From a virus, in the IMG/VR virus record IMGVR_UViG_3300020430_000087, positions 1-24,608 of that record: DNA of 24,608 nucleotides. One strand, given 5' to 3'. Both the position numbers and the translations under genes were made by a program. How positions within the stretch are numbered: the first letter of the stretch is position 1; each line of letters starts with the position of its first letter. Below the pieces are notes generated by a model, which had not been told where the DNA came from, did no database searches, and worked only from the letters and a program-made list of their open reading frames with translations. Shown piece after piece: positions 5,201 to 19,012 of the stretch.

Positions 5201-7145
5201 TGGCCGGGAAAGCACCCGAATCACCACCGCCACCACGTCCACCGCCAAGTGCCGTAATGCTTGAAAACGTAGAACTTGCGCCACTGTTTGCGGCAGATGG
5301 ATAAGCCGGAGCAGTGCCGCCAGCGCCAACAGCAACTGTATGGCTTGTACCACCAGTGACACTCAGCGTACCTTCGAGAACACCGCCACCACCACCACCG
5401 CCAGCTTCTGCGCCACCACCGCCGCCAAGGACTAAGTATTGAACATCAATAGATGAAGACCCAGGGAAGGTAATAGTTCCTGTCCCAACAGTTGTCCACT
5501 GATAAACATAATCGCTGCCAACAGTTGTTTGAGCGCCACTGTGAGCAGCAGTCAAAGCACCGTGAGACGATGGGTAGCGAATAATGACGCGGCCACTACC
5601 ACCAGCGCCGCCGTTTTGCCAGTCAGCGTGGGTATAGCCGGCACCGCCACCGCCGCCACCAAGGCCATTAGTGCCTGGATTTGCTGCGCCAGTAGATGAT
5701 CCACCAAGCTTGCCGGCTCCGCCACCTCCAGCACCACCGGCTCCACCAGCGGTGCCCCATGAGCCACCGCCACCTCCGCCACCGTAAGTGACGGAAGAGC
5801 CAGTAATCGTGGATGTTTTACCAGCACCGCCAGCACCTGCGGTAACACCAGAAACGGCGTTGCCACCAGCCGCACCAGCGCCGCCTCCGCCTCCGCCGCC
5901 TGAGTTGTGTGCAGAGTATGGATAAGAGTTGCCGCCTTTATAGCCTTGTCGACTGCCTAATTCGCCAACAAAATTATTAACGGTCCAGTCATTTGAGCCA
6001 GCACTATCTTCCCCAAGATTTGATCCGTTTGAAAAATCGAGGTGGAAGCCGTTAGGTGACGCTGGTACTACTTGAAGGACGGTTCCATTAACTTCAATGG
6101 CGTAGACGGAGCTTGAGGGAGCACCCCCCAAAAACCAACGGGATTGAAATTTAATCTCAGTAAGAGTGTCACCACTATTAAACTGAGTGTTTGCAATTAA
6201 GTCCCACCATTGAGTTGTTCCGTAAACGTTTGGATTGTAATAAGACCCACCGTTTACAGAAACTTCTCTTGCGTCATATTGGTTGTTATTCAAAAGTGCA
6301 TAAACACGCAAGCTTGTAACGTTTTGAATTGCTGTAGTAGGCGTCCAAGTTAGATGTTCTGTTCCGTTAGACGAATTGTTTTCGCAGCGAGTGCTAGTAC
6401 TGCCGTCGAACATATTATCCTTCGGGTAACTGCTTTTGAAGCCGTTAGAAGCAGTAACCTCAGCAAGATAACCGCTGCCAGACCCAGCTGATGTATAACT
6501 GCCAGTGTATTCAATCGGATTCCAAACACCAGTGTCTTCGTCAAATTCACCGAAGTCAGTCGGCGCAAGTGCTTGACCGTCGATGAAGTGGACATCGGCT
6601 AAATAAGCATCAAGGTTTAAGCTGCTAGATGCTGGAGTCCAAGATCCTATATTATGCCCTGCGGTTGAATTAGTTAAACCTTTGCCGTTTGATGCGACAG
6701 TCGGCCCAGTACTGAAACTTGTTTCTTGGACACCATTTACATAGAGTTTAATTCGCGTAGCATCTGTTCCTGCCGTACTATTCAGTGCAAGGACTAAATG
6801 TTGCCAAGCCCCTGGGTCTCTAAAAACCCTTGCTGTTTCAAACACAACAGCGTTACTGTCGCCAAGAGTGTTGTCGTAAAACCTGAGTTTATCGTCGGCA
6901 TTAAATTCAAATGAACCAAAAACAGCCCCACTCGTTACAGCACCAAAAATTTGTTGCCTAGACCCTAAAAAGCTTCTTTTAACCCAGCCGCTCCAAGTCC
7001 ACGTCTTGCGATTGCCTGCAGACGACGGAGTTCTGGAAAGATAGCTAGTTGAGCTTGAATCAAACCGAAGCGAGCGTTGAATCGTGTAACCAGCGTCTTC
7101 TCCCGACGCCAACATGAATGCTTCGCCGGCACCAAGAACAGACAT
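2247..7145 (-). CDS. Giant modular tail fibre/adhesin (LamG, glycine-rich, SPRY, DUF7483-like)
   Basis: A 1632-residue protein, last large gene of the fibre cassette and a probable host-binding protein. Parts in order: a concanavalin/LamG-like domain at about 20-210 (SLRFDSSSTSYLSRTP, WTWSGWVKR, LYVNGVQ, YLADVHFIDGQ); a discoidin-like module at about 220-365 (NMFDGSTSTR to YAIEVNG); a glycine-rich region at about 415-690 with runs of 5-8 Gly and GSGRVIIRYPS, which could form polyglycine-II helices; a SPRY domain at about 715-870 (GKWYWEYTY, GVALDLDNGTITFYKNG); a second discoidin-like module ending KIEVDGLTLLDG; a DUF7483-like stretch (GLVWIKNRSSAYSHTLYDQV); two more modules ending RLDGKVLVD and AVEVDGKILVD; and a C-terminal DUF7483-like domain (PDLVICKKRNG to PFQFARAR). 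ATG 7145 follows the previous stop directly. Domain names are by eye; the overall fibre role is strongly supported. Confidence 0.9.
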   Translation of the reverse strand: MSVLGAGEAFMLASGEDAGYTIQRSLRFDSSSTSYLSRTPSSAGNRKTWTWSGWVKRSFLGSRQQIFGAVTSGAVFGSFEFNADDKLRFYDNTLGDSNAVVFETARVFRDPGAWQHLVLALNSTAGTDATRIKLYVNGVQETSFSTGPTVASNGKGLTNSTAGHNIGSWTPASSSLNLDAYLADVHFIDGQALAPTDFGEFDEDTGVWNPIEYTGSYTSAGSGSGYLAEVTASNGFKSSYPKDNMFDGSTSTRCENNSSNGTEHLTWTPTTAIQNVTSLRVYALLNNNQYDAREVSVNGGSYYNPNVYGTTQWWDLIANTQFNSGDTLTEIKFQSRWFLGGAPSSSVYAIEVNGTVLQVVPASPNGFHLDFSNGSNLGEDSAGSNDWTVNNFVGELGSRQGYKGGNSYPYSAHNSGGGGGGGAGAAGGNAVSGVTAGAGGAGKTSTITGSSVTYGGGGGGGSWGTAGGAGGAGGGGAGKLGGSSTGAANPGTNGLGGGGGGAGYTHADWQNGGAGGSGRVIIRYPSSHGALTAAHSGAQTTVGSDYVYQWTTVGTGTITFPGSSSIDVQYLVLGGGGGAEAGGGGGGGVLEGTLSVTGGTSHTVAVGAGGTAPAYPSAANSGASSTFSSITALGGGRGGGGDSGAFPANGGSGGGGGTQSNNTAGGEGVPGPAYGLDSLLDSPTNYESSSGNNGGNYCTFNPLDINSQASLSNGNLDWSTTNGNGACRGTIAVSSGKWYWEYTYNEKPSGGGTGFGVLEVSESRGFPGSTNFPDGYTYYSEGSSFTKKYGQGSNSNYGADFAVGDVIGVALDLDNGTITFYKNGVSQGQAFSGISGTYAPSISSGTSVGTAKASFNAGQRPFSISSVPTGYKSLCTQNFDDPLIKNSEEHFEPKIYSGSGSDQVIGGPTYSATTDSGFTNKSYIFNGVDTQASYYNGTGTDHTITTTPITINTQLRVYNNFRSDGTYAICLNGTCVNVPGVGTNSTSYRWSTVDLSSFTLPLTTTSLGYSNSQNSGNSIAKIEVDGLTLLDGTGDPYEFSPGLVWIKNRSSAYSHTLYDQVRGVGPNKALATNSTGNEGSLSDGTTFGYLSAFNSNGFTVVKGSDATSYVSGSGQLYSAFGWNAGSLATNSAYNQSQAWSTSLSSNGTLQNAINAFDGSTSTRAQTAGAAVGKTITFAPATGVSFTTSLEVYCDQGNSTPTATWNSNTVNPGGGAWVTVYSGSGTISSSTPLVINTETAGQYATLKGIRLDGKVLVDKGVIPAGSLNSSTYTTGTYTSKWDATGSTGSVDNGLRAFNGNTGNYASNAQSNTTVKWAPDSPITVNSLLRIRASGISGGSGQVSVNGTGITVTSSPVWYTISASSLSEIALTDIGSTHGRLWAVEVDGKILVDSNQTPPNVPTIATTSRGNSTAGISVCTYTGTGSGTANSDSGHSFAHNLSKAPDLVICKKRNGTNGWPVFHSAADAPLVIGTNGQDTSSFLFAKKDPTSTVVFLGNNPEINKTGDTYLAYCFSAVENFSAFGKYTGSGSQKFIHLGFKPAWLMIKRYTDNTVGEWTIYDSASSPNNEIQKKIWANGNSVEEDHPNNSIDFVSNGFVVDPGSNAPNVQYTNNGNVGYLYAAFASAPFQFARAR

Positions 7146-14996: not shown

Positions 14997-16178
14997 TCAA
15001 TAGACGAAGGAATAGGCGACGGAGACGAAGTCCTTATTCAGGATTTCGAAACCGGCGAAGAGGCTCCAGATCATGATGATGAAACGACTGAAATCGTCGT
15101 TGTTGTTCAACAGGATCTGAGCGTTGTTGCCACCAATGCCGACACCAACGGCCTGAGGGCCGAAGAACAACATGGGGGCAGCAGTTGTTACTGCGCCTGA
15201 GATGGAGGCATCAGTAATGGTTGCCGTGAAGGACTTCTCGGGCAGGTTAGTCGACTCGAACCAACGAACTCCCTCAAATAGGAACCCCGTGGGCATCACC
15301 GGCTGACCCGCGACGAAACCAGCCTGGCCGTAAGCGGGACCCATGCCATGGAAGAAGTTGGCGTTGGGAGCCTGCTCGGGCTGCAGGGGGTTCATCATAC
15401 CGTTGCCGGCATAACGCGCGATTTCTCTAAAAGCGTCATTCTGCCGAAGGTGCATCATTGCAGTAGGATCTGCGATGCAACGGTAATAACCATCAGCGAA
15501 AGTTGGCACGTTTCGCTTACGCATGTCTTTGACCACCTGAAGCAGGTCGGTCTTGACATCGAACTTGGCAGACTCACCGGATGCGTAGGTCGCAACCGTA
15601 GTGCCAGTGCGGGTTTTGCCGAGAGGGAAGTAATAACCACCCTGTGAATCTGAGGCCTTGCCGTTGGCATCAGCCTTGAACAGTTCGTCGGCAAAAACAC
15701 GATCACGCCAACGACGGTAGTCGTCGAGCAGTGTCAGAGAGCCGATGGACTGGTGGAACACATTAAGGTTCCCGGTGTCCAACAAAAGGCGTTGGGCAGT
15801 AAGCAGAGTCTCGCGTGCAACCTTGAAAGTTGAGGGTGCTGCGGTATCAGAAGGATCCGCAGGTCCTGTATATTCTTTTAGGTTGACTAAGACTTTGTCT
15901 TTGACAATATTGCGGCTAGATGCAGTGCCCAGAGTTTGATCGGCAGTGCGCTCTCGAGAATCCTTAGTGCCAGGATTTCCCCAGAAACGATAACGATCAA
16001 GCTGAACAGTCTGCCCGGGTTGCTTAGCGAAATCGTGCACAACCACGGGCTCTACGGCCATCTCAATGATGTATCCCGGGTGGGGACGGTAGAGCTCAGC
16101 ACCTAGCAGCTTCGGAAAATCATTGTCAATCCACATGGGAAGACGATCCTCAAGCTGTAAGAACGATCGAGCGCGCAT
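14997..16178 (-). CDS. Major capsid protein (N4-gp56-like)
   Basis: A 393-residue protein, the right size for an HK97-fold coat protein of the N4-gp56 type. Features: early GQTVQLDRYRFWG and ERTADQTLGTAS with KEYTGP; a long helix region (ARETLLTAQRLLLDTGN; LLDDYRRWRDRVFADELF); the typical VKDMRKRNVPTFADGYYRC then IADPTAMMHLRQND segment; a GFLFEGVRWFESTNLP strand; and PMLFFGPQAVGVGIGG near the end. These follow the order of N4-gp56-family coat proteins; it is not T4 gp23-like. Start: ATG 16178 gives MRARSFLQLED; an inner ATG (residue 15, MWIDNDFP) with GAGG 11 nt upstream is an alternative. It is transcribed away from the homing-endonuclease gene, with only 47 nt between the start codons. Confidence 0.85.
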   Translation of the reverse strand: MRARSFLQLEDRLPMWIDNDFPKLLGAELYRPHPGYIIEMAVEPVVVHDFAKQPGQTVQLDRYRFWGNPGTKDSRERTADQTLGTASSRNIVKDKVLVNLKEYTGPADPSDTAAPSTFKVARETLLTAQRLLLDTGNLNVFHQSIGSLTLLDDYRRWRDRVFADELFKADANGKASDSQGGYYFPLGKTRTGTTVATYASGESAKFDVKTDLLQVVKDMRKRNVPTFADGYYRCIADPTAMMHLRQNDAFREIARYAGNGMMNPLQPEQAPNANFFHGMGPAYGQAGFVAGQPVMPTGFLFEGVRWFESTNLPEKSFTATITDASISGAVTTAAPMLFFGPQAVGVGIGGNNAQILLNNNDDFSRFIIMIWSLFAGFEILNKDFVSVAYSFVY

Positions 16179-16225: not shown

Positions 16226-16933
16226 TTGGATTCCGCTGACGTTCGCGGATTGCTCGGGTTATTACTCGCAGATGGAAGTCTTGTCCCATATCGCACTGTT
16301 GGCGGGGGTTATATCCAGCTGACATTGACAGCGGGGGCAGCTGAATCTGCGTTTCTCGAAGAAAAGGTGGCTGAATTCCGCCATTTCATCCCGACAAATG
16401 CGAATATTGTTCACTATGAGACTCCGAAGCGGGCAAATGGCAGATCAACCTCTGCGTTGCGCTTCAGAGTGTCGACTGACAAGTTGAGGCCCGTATACAA
16501 CCTCTTATATCCGCATGGTGAGCGTGAAATCACGCAAACATCGCTGGATTTACTAGGTGCCAAAGCTCTTGCTTGGTGTTGGGCCGAAGGATCACGCGCC
16601 ATGAAGGACGGATCCGCACAATTAGCCCGGGTCGGCGCCACGATCCAAGAAGCACGACTGATGTCGACCTGGGTTGAGGTACTTACCGGGGCGATATCCA
16701 CAATCGACGAGAAACGAGTCAAGCCACGCCTGACATTCGACGCTGATCAAGCAGTAAAGGTCCGCAAGGCCCTGGTCGACTACGCACCGAAGTCTCGAGT
16801 TCACCTATTTCAAGAGGAGCAGTGGGATGTCAGCAAAATTCGTGGCGCGCGCACTGAGCTTCACCTTGGGAAAAGGGGTGGTCGCCCTAAAGGGAGCAAG
16901 AAAGCGCCCGTGGCTGGAGATTGTCCGTCCTGA
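16226..16933 (+). CDS. LAGLIDADG homing endonuclease, complete two-motif form
   Basis: A 235-residue protein starting at TTG 16226, with AGGGCG about 6 nt before it. Motif 1 lies at residues 8-18 (GLLGLLLADGS, Asp16 as catalytic acid). Motif 2 lies at about 110-122 (LGAKALAWCWAEGS, Glu121 in place of the usual Asp). The intervening region has the expected beta strands (ALRFRVSTDKLRPVYNLLYP) and a second half follows, so both half-domains are present. The C-terminus carries KRGGRPKGSKK, an AT-hook-like DNA-binding tail. The enzymes of this family cut long asymmetric DNA sites and copy their own gene. It is free-standing, divergent from the capsid gene, and its last 107 bases overlap the next gene. 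Confidence 0.8.
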   Translation: MDSADVRGLLGLLLADGSLVPYRTVGGGYIQLTLTAGAAESAFLEEKVAEFRHFIPTNANIVHYETPKRANGRSTSALRFRVSTDKLRPVYNLLYPHGEREITQTSLDLLGAKALAWCWAEGSRAMKDGSAQLARVGATIQEARLMSTWVEVLTGAISTIDEKRVKPRLTFDADQAVKVRKALVDYAPKSRVHLFQEEQWDVSKIRGARTELHLGKRGGRPKGSKKAPVAGDCPS

Positions 16934-17414
16934 AACCCAGCGGACCTACCTCGATCACCAGTTACGAAGCCTGCGGAAGCTTCATGACGGCCCTATCGAC
17001 GCTGTATGGGACGTCATTCCTACCAATGGCTTCTACGACAAAGAGCGATTACGCCTACATGGTGAGGGTATGTGGCGAGTTCACGAGCTCAGGTGCCCCC
17101 ACGACGAGCCATTGATAACGAGAGAAGCACTCGACGTGTGCGGAATCCAGGGTGTCGCTGCTCTCTGGGTTGATCAAGGGCGGTTCGTCGGTAAATACGG
17201 AAAGATCAGCGGGAGATTCAAAAGCGATGAGCTGGTCACCATTGCTGAATGGTTGACTGACATGGGGTTCGACTCCTCCTGCCATGGGAATGGAGAGCGA
17301 TTCTTCGAGGTGTGCATTAAACGCTCCGTCATCAAGGACATGATCAACGAAATTCGCCCCCATATTCACGTCTCCATGAAGAACAAACTTTGCAAATACC
17401 GATTTAAGATGTGA
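16827..17414 (+). CDS. Second LAGLIDADG-like protein, motif 1 degenerate
   Basis: A 195-residue protein (ATG 16827, with GAGGAG about 8 nt upstream) in a different frame from the gene it overlaps. Residues 101-190 match the second half of a LAGLIDADG domain: ALDVCGIQGVAALWVDQG with Asp116, then GKISGRFKSDELVTIAEWLT and HIHVSMKNKL. Residues 8-18 (RALSFTLGKGV) look like a worn first motif with Lys16 where the acid should be, followed by RPETQRTYLDHQLRSLRKL, which fits the usual segment after motif 1. It may be a nicking or inactive relative, a partner of the first enzyme or a decaying copy. Identification rests on motif order and I am moderately sure. Confidence 0.65.
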   Translation: MSAKFVARALSFTLGKGVVALKGARKRPWLEIVRPETQRTYLDHQLRSLRKLHDGPIDAVWDVIPTNGFYDKERLRLHGEGMWRVHELRCPHDEPLITREALDVCGIQGVAALWVDQGRFVGKYGKISGRFKSDELVTIAEWLTDMGFDSSCHGNGERFFEVCIKRSVIKDMINEIRPHIHVSMKNKLCKYRFKM

Positions 17415-17573
17415 GTGGCCCCGAAGAAGAACTACGTCAGGGGCATATTCCCCAGGAGTCCAAGTTTTTGTAGTTTCCTTGGACTGGAAAGTGATCCGCT
17501 GTGCGTCTGATCAACGTGCAGCGGCGCCTGGCAATGCAATTTTGTATAGCATATTTGAGGCATAGGACATTAT
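17415..17573 (+). other. Short gap with several possible RNA hairpins
   Basis: A 159-base gap before the CP12-like gene, without an open frame. Three stem-loops can be drawn on the plus strand: GCCCC/GGGGC (17418-17422 with 17440-17444); a perfect 8-bp AGTCCAAG/CTTGGACT stem (17457-17464 with 17478-17485) with a 13-base T-rich loop; and a 9-bp stem with two G-U pairs at 17498-17522. The GGGG at 17440-17443 could instead pair with CCCC at 17450-17453. None is followed by a T-run, so they are not standard terminators. They may be a structured leader of the next gene or the scar of the endonuclease insertion. AGGA at 17564-17567 is the ribosome-binding site for the next ATG. Confidence 0.4.
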
Positions 17574-17738
17574 ATGGATCATTCAAACTCGGACGAAAAG
17601 GAATGCACTGGAGCTTGTGAGCGGCACTGCCCGCCTAAAGCTTCAGAACAAACCGAACCTTCTGGTTTGCGACGCAAGTTCCTCGAGTATTGCGACGCCA
17701 ATCCAGATGCCAGCGAATGCCGTATGTATGAGTGCTAA
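17574..17738 (+). CDS. CP12-like mini-protein
   Basis: A 54-residue open frame with AGGA 6 nt before the ATG. Residues 36-54 read FLEYCDANPDASECRMYEC. This closely matches the C-terminal loop of CP12 (Cys, eight residues, Cys-Arg-x-Tyr), the part that binds glyceraldehyde-3-phosphate dehydrogenase in the CP12/GAPDH/PRK complex that switches off the Calvin cycle. The N-terminal part differs from full CP12: it has Cys11, Cys15 and Cys19 but not the AWD-VEEL core, and it is shorter than host CP12 (about 75 residues). An extra Cys ends the protein. Cyanophages are known to carry CP12. Here the gene is coupled to a virion-type gene (TAATG overlap), so a metabolic role is not certain; it could be a small Cys-bonded protein that merely shares the motif. 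Confidence 0.75.
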   Translation: MDHSNSDEKECTGACERHCPPKASEQTEPSGLRRKFLEYCDANPDASECRMYEC

Positions 17739-18529
17739 TGACACTCCAGCAGTCACCCGAAATTCAACGCATCAAAAGTCTTCAAGGTGGCAGCAGCAGC
17801 ACAGCGCCATCATTCATTCGCTCTGAGCACAATCAAAACAGCAGCCTCTCCTCAGCTACTGACCTGGGCACCGTTACCAACCTGACCAGGGTATTAACCG
17901 GGGACATTGGATCTGAAACAGGTCGAAATACCTTGTACTACAAGGTCGAAACAACCGACCCTTCGGATGTCCGCATCTTTAAGAACTTCGTAAATACACG
18001 GACCGACAAAGACATTGCTGTCGGCCTGCTTGATACCAATCGCCACCAGATCATTCTGGATAGCCAGGGCTTCGGCCAATTCAACGAAGTACACAACACT
18101 CAAGAGCTTGAATCTCTTCGAAAGCTTCCTAAGGGCGTTTACTACTTCACAGTTGCCAGCAGCCAGTGGCAATCTGCCCCCTTCAGCATCACCCTGCAGG
18201 TCATCCGGTCCCGTGAACTCTTCGGGAGCGCAGGTGGCACTGCATCACCGACTCTGCGCTTGGCCCTCGTCAAGCTCTTTGGCGCAGCTGGAGGTGATGG
18301 ATCACCCGAAGCAACAATCACTCCCAAAGACAAGATCAAGTTGCTCGGTGGTAGTACGAGTGGAACGGCAGCTCCAACCCTCTCGCTGACAATTATGGAG
18401 GGAACAATCCTTGGAACGATGGTTCCATTTGGACGCCTCAAGCATACATACCGAATCACAGGTACCGCATCCGGTACATCATCCAATAGCGCTACGCTTA
18501 CAGTTACAACTCCGGGTGGCGGTTACTAA
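17738..18529 (+). CDS. Virion protein with a PPC-like beta-sandwich domain
   Basis: A 263-residue protein; ATG 17738 overlaps the previous stop as TAATG (an in-frame GTG two codons upstream is less likely). After a Ser-rich N-terminus, residues about 40-155 follow the pattern of the bacterial pre-peptidase C-terminal (PPC) beta-sandwich: LGTVTNLTRVLTGDIG, NTLYYKVETTDPSDVRIF, DIAVGLLDTNRHQIILDSQ, LPKGVYYFTVAS and FSITLQVIR. The C-terminal 100 residues are a repetitive Gly/Thr/Ala-rich region (FGSAGGTASPTLRLALVKLF, FGAAGGDGSPEA, GGSTSGTAAPTLSLT), with three copies of a 20-25-residue unit. This suits a surface-exposed virion or tail protein. Strand and location separate it from the main fibre cassette. 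Domain name by eye. Confidence 0.8.
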   Translation: MTLQQSPEIQRIKSLQGGSSSTAPSFIRSEHNQNSSLSSATDLGTVTNLTRVLTGDIGSETGRNTLYYKVETTDPSDVRIFKNFVNTRTDKDIAVGLLDTNRHQIILDSQGFGQFNEVHNTQELESLRKLPKGVYYFTVASSQWQSAPFSITLQVIRSRELFGSAGGTASPTLRLALVKLFGAAGGDGSPEATITPKDKIKLLGGSTSGTAAPTLSLTIMEGTILGTMVPFGRLKHTYRITGTASGTSSNSATLTVTTPGGGY

Positions 18530-18589: not shown

Positions 18590-19012
18590 ATGGCGTTTTC
18601 GCAGTATTTTGCTACTCAAATCCTGAGCTGGGTAAAGAGCAGCGCATTTCCATCGGCTCCGACGAATGTGTACGTGACGCTTCATACCGGGGACCCTGGT
18701 ACTGCGGGCACCGCTAATGACGTCTCGGCCACAATTACCGGCTCGAGCAACCGAACCCAAGTCGCAAGCTCTGCATTCAGCAACGTTGGTGCAGCTTCAG
18801 GCGGTGGCTTCGAGATCACCAATACAGGTGTTGTCCAGATCACGACCAATGCACAAAACAGCACTGGTCAGAACCTGACTCACTTCGGAATCTGGGACGC
18901 ACAGACCAGCGGCAACTTCCTGGCATCTGGCTCTCTGACTTCAAACGTCGACGTCCAGCAGGGTGACACCGTGCAGTTCAATATCGGCGCAATGGCTATC
19001 AAGGTCGTCTGA
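18590..19012 (+). CDS. Gp80-like phage tail protein
   Basis: A 140-residue protein. The pattern is the one of Gp80-like tail proteins: a short helix at the N-terminus, VYVTLHTGDPGTAGTAND, a S..NRTQV strand, GFEITNTGVVQITTNA, LTHFGIWDAQTSGNFLASGS, and a final GDTVQFNIGAMAIKVV. Length and strand order agree with the family, which is found in tails of many phages, often near the tip or fibres. The ATG at 18590 lacks a clear Shine-Dalgarno; a GGGAGGA lies about 50 nt upstream in the loop of a 6-bp hairpin (18525-18545). Its TGA overlaps the next ATG (TGATG). Confidence 0.85.
   Translation: MAFSQYFATQILSWVKSSAFPSAPTNVYVTLHTGDPGTAGTANDVSATITGSSNRTQVASSAFSNVGAASGGGFEITNTGVVQITTNAQNSTGQNLTHFGIWDAQTSGNFLASGSLTSNVDVQQGDTVQFNIGAMAIKVV

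Follow-up and report, generated by a model that had tools for sequence, protein, structure and literature searches.

The window, a stretch of 24,608 nucleotides of viral DNA, encodes a 54-residue protein that belongs by sequence to the C-terminal domain of CP12. We regard it as likely that this mini-CP12, a tail-only CP12 protein, serves the virus as a metabolic effector. Carbon fixation has in CP12 one of its central switches, and the phage versions are a main candidate for viral arrest of CO2 fixation in picocyanobacteria. Among phage CP12s, this one is distinguished by its further shortening and its swapped arm. The gene and its parts are as follows.

17564-17567 (+): Shine-Dalgarno-like AGGA, six bases 5' of the ATG at 17574, read from the sequence and shared by the near homologues
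17574-17738 (+): mini-CP12 gene, 54 amino acids and a TAA stop, recognised by its open reading frame and translation, a Pfam CP12 match above the cut-off and purifying selection
17604-17636 (+): tri-cysteine arm, residues 11-21 (CTGACERHCPP), invariant except for residue 16 in seven distinct homologues
17669-17735 (+): segment aligned to CP12 3zdf_C/6gfo_E, with C, P, C and the penultimate acid invariant in 45 proteins and a predicted helix at residues 31-42

The open reading frame at 17574-17738 (+) translates to MDHSNSDEKECTGACERHCPPKASEQTEPSGLRRKFLEYCDANPDASECRMYEC. Its cysteines are C11, C15 and C19 in the N-terminal part, C40 and C49 further on, and C54 at the terminus. The three N-terminal cysteines, the terminal one and the missing AWD_VEEL core are all as the original prediction had described; the core is absent from every mini-CP12 that we read. 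Six more full-length near homologues are 81-98% identical to the window protein and keep all six cysteines, and contig L001 carries an identical protein. Pairwise dN/dS values among the near homologues are mostly about 0.03-0.12; those of the closest pairs are higher but unreliable, as they rest on only a few substitutions. The reading frame is real and is under purifying selection. No promoter of the sigma-70 type was seen close to the gene, and a search of genome contigs for mini-CP12s of the window type gave no match.

The CP12 C-terminal pattern that had been read in the 54-residue product was confirmed by profile and structure-database sequence matches. Pfam CP12 (PF02672), the profile search proposed beforehand as a check, matches the protein with 27.8 bits (cut-off 22.7, E 4.4e-6). 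The match covers residues 23-53, which correspond to model positions 40-70 of 70, that is, the C-terminal half only. A sequence search of the PDB returned CP12 6gfo_E (E 3.3e-5) and the 23-residue CP12 peptide 3zdf_C (E 5.3e-5). C40, P44 and C49 fit the CxxxPxxxxC pattern, a cysteine pair eight residues apart around a central proline. In a mixed alignment all 28 proteins matched CP12. A profile built from 20 mini-CP12s found 3zdf_C (E 8e-9), CP12 6gfo_E (1e-7), CP12 3b1j_C (2e-5) and the C-terminus of GAPDH subunit B (7e-4); its matches to ADP-ribosyl cyclase rest on a 12-residue stretch and were rejected as spurious. With the window protein as query, PHROGs returned nothing beyond weak matches to two function-unknown families, and NCBIfam returned no match. 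The predicted structure has a helix at residues 31-42 followed by a loop, with the tail RMYEC after the C40-C49 loop. This model was derived from an alignment of the window protein with sequences from related loci and has a mean pLDDT of 65, weak outside the tail. A Foldseek structure search with the AlphaFold model of the mini-CP12 returned no match.

The protein is one of 45 distinct tail-only CP12 proteins of 40-78 residues, nearly all of which occupy the same slot in a lineage of phages resembling Synechococcus phage S-EIV1. This set was collected by a scan of capsid loci and a profile search (47 sequences, less the Kyanoviridae members L122 and L124). Its sources are metagenomic contigs except for S-EIV1 itself, and proteins of this length do not allow reliable trees. 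The cysteine pair with its fixed spacing, the intervening proline and the penultimate Asp or Glu are invariant in all 45; the acid is preceded by Tyr, Phe or His, and in one case by Gln. The original prediction had made its reading depend on homologues keeping the paired cysteines. The C-terminal pair proved universal, and the N-terminal cysteines are specific to lineages. The front ends of the mini-CP12s differ by lineage: besides the window type there are a CxDGFC...FFxPI type of 64-78 residues, a PLDSGLRRKFL type, an SDYCxASG type, a GYSDL type, a type of 40-55 residues and the type of S-EIV1 and L175.

S-EIV1 (KJ410740) itself contains a 45-residue CP12-tail reading frame at 5931-6068 on the minus strand (L015 1495-1632, -), which is unannotated in the record. 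Like the window gene, it is a tail-only CP12 of the same phage lineage and overlaps its neighbour by 1 nt. It differs from the window gene in its arm, in its place elsewhere in the genome, in being unannotated and in having no leader RNA. Homology between its neighbour and the 263-residue gene downstream of the window mini-CP12 was not established. The neighbour is annotated PurM in S-EIV1; Pfam finds no family in that protein. Contig L055, which has no leader RNA, holds a degenerate CP12 tail (KFEEYCLANPSAPEAKIFDL), whose second cysteine is gone, about 1.6 kb from the capsid gene. The 42-residue relatives share the stretch DSPTISPQRRR with the N-terminus of Kyanoviridae CP12 (score 56, reached by none of 5000 shuffles), which suggests, from sequence comparison, that at least this type arose through internal deletion. 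Among the relatives of the window protein the PTISPQxRR motif is confined to the 40-42-residue ones.

Canonical CP12 (PDB 6gfo, 3b1j, 6kez) shares with the window protein the C-terminal cysteine pair around a proline and the succession of helix, loop and tail. It is about 80 residues long and docks phosphoribulokinase (PRK) through an N-terminal cysteine pair and AWD_VEEL. The window sequence has no recognisable counterpart of AWD_VEEL and no clear one of the N-terminal pair. The C-terminal extension of plant GapB (PDB 2pkq, 7q54) is likewise a CP12 tail without the PRK-docking half. It acts in cis as part of the enzyme to which it is fused, whereas the phage protein, a separate polypeptide, would act in trans.

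Another comparison is with the CP12s of Kyanoviridae, the T4-like cyanophages. Those of S-PRM1 (AXN58407), S-CAM9 (AOV60389) and S-SCSM1 (QFG06480) have the tail YCDxNPxAxECRxYE and, like the window protein, no AWD_VEEL. The eight that we read are 70-75 residues long and lack both this core and any N-terminal cysteine, in contrast to the tri-cysteine arm of the window protein. As a type, Kyanoviridae CP12s have 70-78 residues, an N-terminal PTxSPQxRRH segment and a gp5 hub gene nearby. The window protein, with 54 residues and no SPQxRRH segment, falls outside this type. It ends in Cys where the Kyanoviridae proteins mostly end in Asp, so its affinity may differ from theirs. Seven of the eight Kyanoviridae genes adjoin or lie near baseplate genes (the neighbour in S-T4, counted here, is annotated only as hypothetical); in S-SRM01 none falls within the stretch shown. 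In about two dozen more IMG/VR loci of this kind a gp5 homologue also lies close by. The CP12 stop of both SynMITS9220M01 and S-T4 shares 1 nt with the next gene. Known cyanophage CP12 genes had been described in the original prediction as grouped with metabolic genes; the records show mostly baseplate-gene neighbourhoods. The contrast that it drew with known phage CP12s falls with this, because phage CP12s normally lack the core and have a virion gene as neighbour.

CP12 binds PRK through its N-terminal helices, and its C-terminal domain, made of a short helix, a disulfide loop and the tail, fills the GAPDH active site (PMC10253348). The predicted helix 31-42 and loop of the window protein resemble the GAPDH-binding domain from Arabidopsis, in which a helix and loop precede a tail capable of filling the active site (PMC10253348). 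In Chlamydomonas the penultimate Glu of CP12 touches Arg82 of GAPDH (PMC4436894). A C-terminal Glu thus makes contact with the Arg in the NADP site; in plant GapB this tail works in cis and inhibits GAPDH in oxidising conditions (PMC4436894). In Synechocystis the C-terminal cysteine pair of CP12 matters far more than the N-terminal pair (PMC9623430). Inhibition of GAPDH by the window protein is a well-grounded expectation from its sequence. The earlier proposal of a minimal GAPDH-binding inhibitor gains support of the same kind, as the conserved part is precisely the CP12 domain known for filling the active site of GAPDH, with diagnostic residues that do not vary among 45 related proteins. During infection of a picocyanobacterium, C40 and C49 would form a disulfide that shapes the short helix and loop. 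Y52, E53 and C54 would then insert into the NADP site of Gap2, the GAPDH of the Calvin cycle, and obstruct the enzyme, as host CP12 and the CP12-derived tail of plant GapB do. Since the PRK-docking half is absent, the protein should inhibit GAPDH without building a GAPDH-CP12-PRK complex. On this reading the gene would be an auxiliary metabolic gene whose product plugs GAPDH in a redox-sensitive way. The gene keeps only the part of CP12 that plugs the GAPDH active site, and for this reason the mini-CP12 probably shuts down carbon fixation in the host. NADPH would be spared and carbon pushed into the pentose phosphate pathway for nucleotide synthesis, following the published model for cyanophage CP12 (PMC5082946).

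It is possible, and we propose it only tentatively, that the S-EIV1-like phages carry modular GAPDH plugs in which the PRK-docking half has been replaced by lineage-specific arms, several of them with conserved cysteine motifs. Such arms might recognise a further target or change the redox threshold, thereby keeping GAPDH blocked in light-driven infection or recruiting it to a new complex. The natural series of mini-CP12s, the shortest of 40 residues, offers a direct way to ask whether a block of GAPDH alone suffices when PRK is not sequestered. With it, a widespread phage lineage joins the carriers of CP12. Annotation misses such small effectors, one of them even in the reference genome of S-EIV1.

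In the window protein the arm takes the form of a block, KECTGAC-x-RHCPP, that is kept in the near homologues, with variation at residues 2-5 and 7 and at most of 22-27. The arm may tune the redox state or stability of the protein or make a second contact. Seven residues separate C11 from C19; for the canonical N-terminal cysteines a spacing of 7-8 is reported (PMC9406205). The sequence around them shows no match to the canonical N-terminus, the Pfam match being confined to residues 23-53. A derivation of the arm from Kyanoviridae CP12 N-termini is unsupported: its alignment with them is no better than those of shuffled sequences (456 of 1000 as good). The CP12 tail could be a handle on GAPDH whose main job is not inhibition, with the work done by the cysteine-rich arm, which might for example bind a metal or pass a disulfide to GAPDH or to another bound enzyme. 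The invariance of the three cysteines in seven distinct homologues amid varying neighbours speaks for this, as do the canonical-like spacing and the presence of another cysteine arm, CxDGFC, in many relatives. We nevertheless consider it improbable. The arm matches no known family (Pfam, PHROGs, NCBIfam), and several relatives lack N-terminal cysteines altogether, with some only 40-42 residues long, which means that the common function of the family does not depend on the arm.

The neighbours of the gene in the window are listed below.

14997-16178 (-): major capsid protein (phrog_1357), 69% identical to that of S-EIV1 over 96% of its length
16226-16933 (+): LAGLIDADG homing-endonuclease-like ORF1 (PF03161, 36.3 bits)
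16827-17414 (+): ORF2, probable second LAGLIDADG-like half in another frame; the overlapping pair recurs in related loci
17418-17531 (+): structured leader RNA with kissing loop, 94.7% of cells paired (a percentage that leans towards the structure, which was drawn from the window sequence) and 24 of 36 pairs changed on both sides (independent of that choice)
17738-18529 (+): downstream gene, 263 amino acids, probable virion gene with a weak match to a PHROG of unknown function
18590-19012 (+): Gp80-like head/fibre protein (PF23140, 97.8 bits; phrog_240, head protein)

The order is thus capsid gene (minus strand), LAGLIDADG pair, leader RNA, mini-CP12, 263-residue gene and Gp80-like gene (all plus strand). 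A capsid search of 50,697 phage records gave S-EIV1 as the sole match; several hundred related contigs are present in IMG/VR, with at least 595 stretches confirmed. Several relatives carry psbA, some of them together with a mini-CP12, which makes a picocyanobacterial host a sound assumption. A trade-off between psbA and mini-CP12 was considered and dropped, as several CP12-bearing loci also carry psbA. In one S-EIV1-like phage psbA (D1) lies within the structural module (L129 6759-7844, +). A transaldolase-family gene lies near psbA in the more distant relatives G027 and G028; none was found in the mini-CP12-bearing contigs tested, most of which are fragments.

In TAATG at 17736-17740 the ATG of the next gene begins on the last base of the mini-CP12 stop. 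The overlap with a structural gene noted earlier holds as a 1-nt overlap; that the partner is structural is only probable, its sole match being a weak one to a PHROG without assigned function. The virion-related use of the motif offered in the original prediction, with the protein as a minor factor in particle structure or assembly that is coupled to the virion gene downstream, would fit this arrangement and the 1-nt overlap of the S-EIV1 copy. Position is no argument for such a role, because Kyanoviridae CP12 genes, whose products are regarded as metabolic, commonly lie near virion genes and may even overlap the next gene by 1 nt. The gene is, moreover, missing between similar flanks in other relatives, shows no overlap where the downstream gene is a different one, has the residues of the CP12 tail as its invariant ones, and shares its module with psbA in some CP12-bearing relatives. 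We consider a virion role very unlikely.

L038, L043, L056, L063 and L065 have the leader RNA followed by the downstream gene with no mini-CP12, and others have the mini-CP12 in between. The mini-CP12 is a cassette that comes and goes between similar flanks. It is dispensable, as some relatives live without it. Among non-redundant leaders with enough sequence, 42 of 60 precede a mini-CP12, in a sample biased by the way loci were found. That the gene is a decaying, functionless remnant of CP12, as the loss of much of the canonical protein and the L055 tail without its second cysteine might suggest, is hardly credible in view of purifying selection, tail residues invariant across 45 divergent proteins, and a conserved position and ribosome-binding site.

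The leader RNA forms three hairpins, of which two lie within a CCAGG/CCTGG stem, and GAACTAC in the first loop can kiss GTAGTTT in the second. Its covariation score over 28 distinct sequences was reached by none of 500 shuffles. Rfam gave no match to 17418-17531 at E<=1. The leader is present as one copy per contig in 12 of 18 records searched, with or without a mini-CP12 downstream, and was not found in S-EIV1. An exact-pattern search of bacterial genomes also found none, with a pattern that does not cover the shorter spacing of the window.

The homing-endonuclease neighbour noted earlier is present as a LAGLIDADG gene upstream of the mini-CP12. The LAGLIDADG protein is apparently split into two overlapping genes, of which ORF2 has its own ATG and AGGAG; its counterpart in L014 gives a weak, sub-threshold match to PF03161 (14.7 bits). 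Recurrence of the pair beside the capsid gene in related phages suggests a two-subunit enzyme. A tie between the leader and the LAGLIDADG genes was dropped, since more distant relatives have the leader away from the pair. In L131, the one distant relative inspected, it stands apart from LAGLIDADG near an integrase gene, just after a TATAAT-like box.
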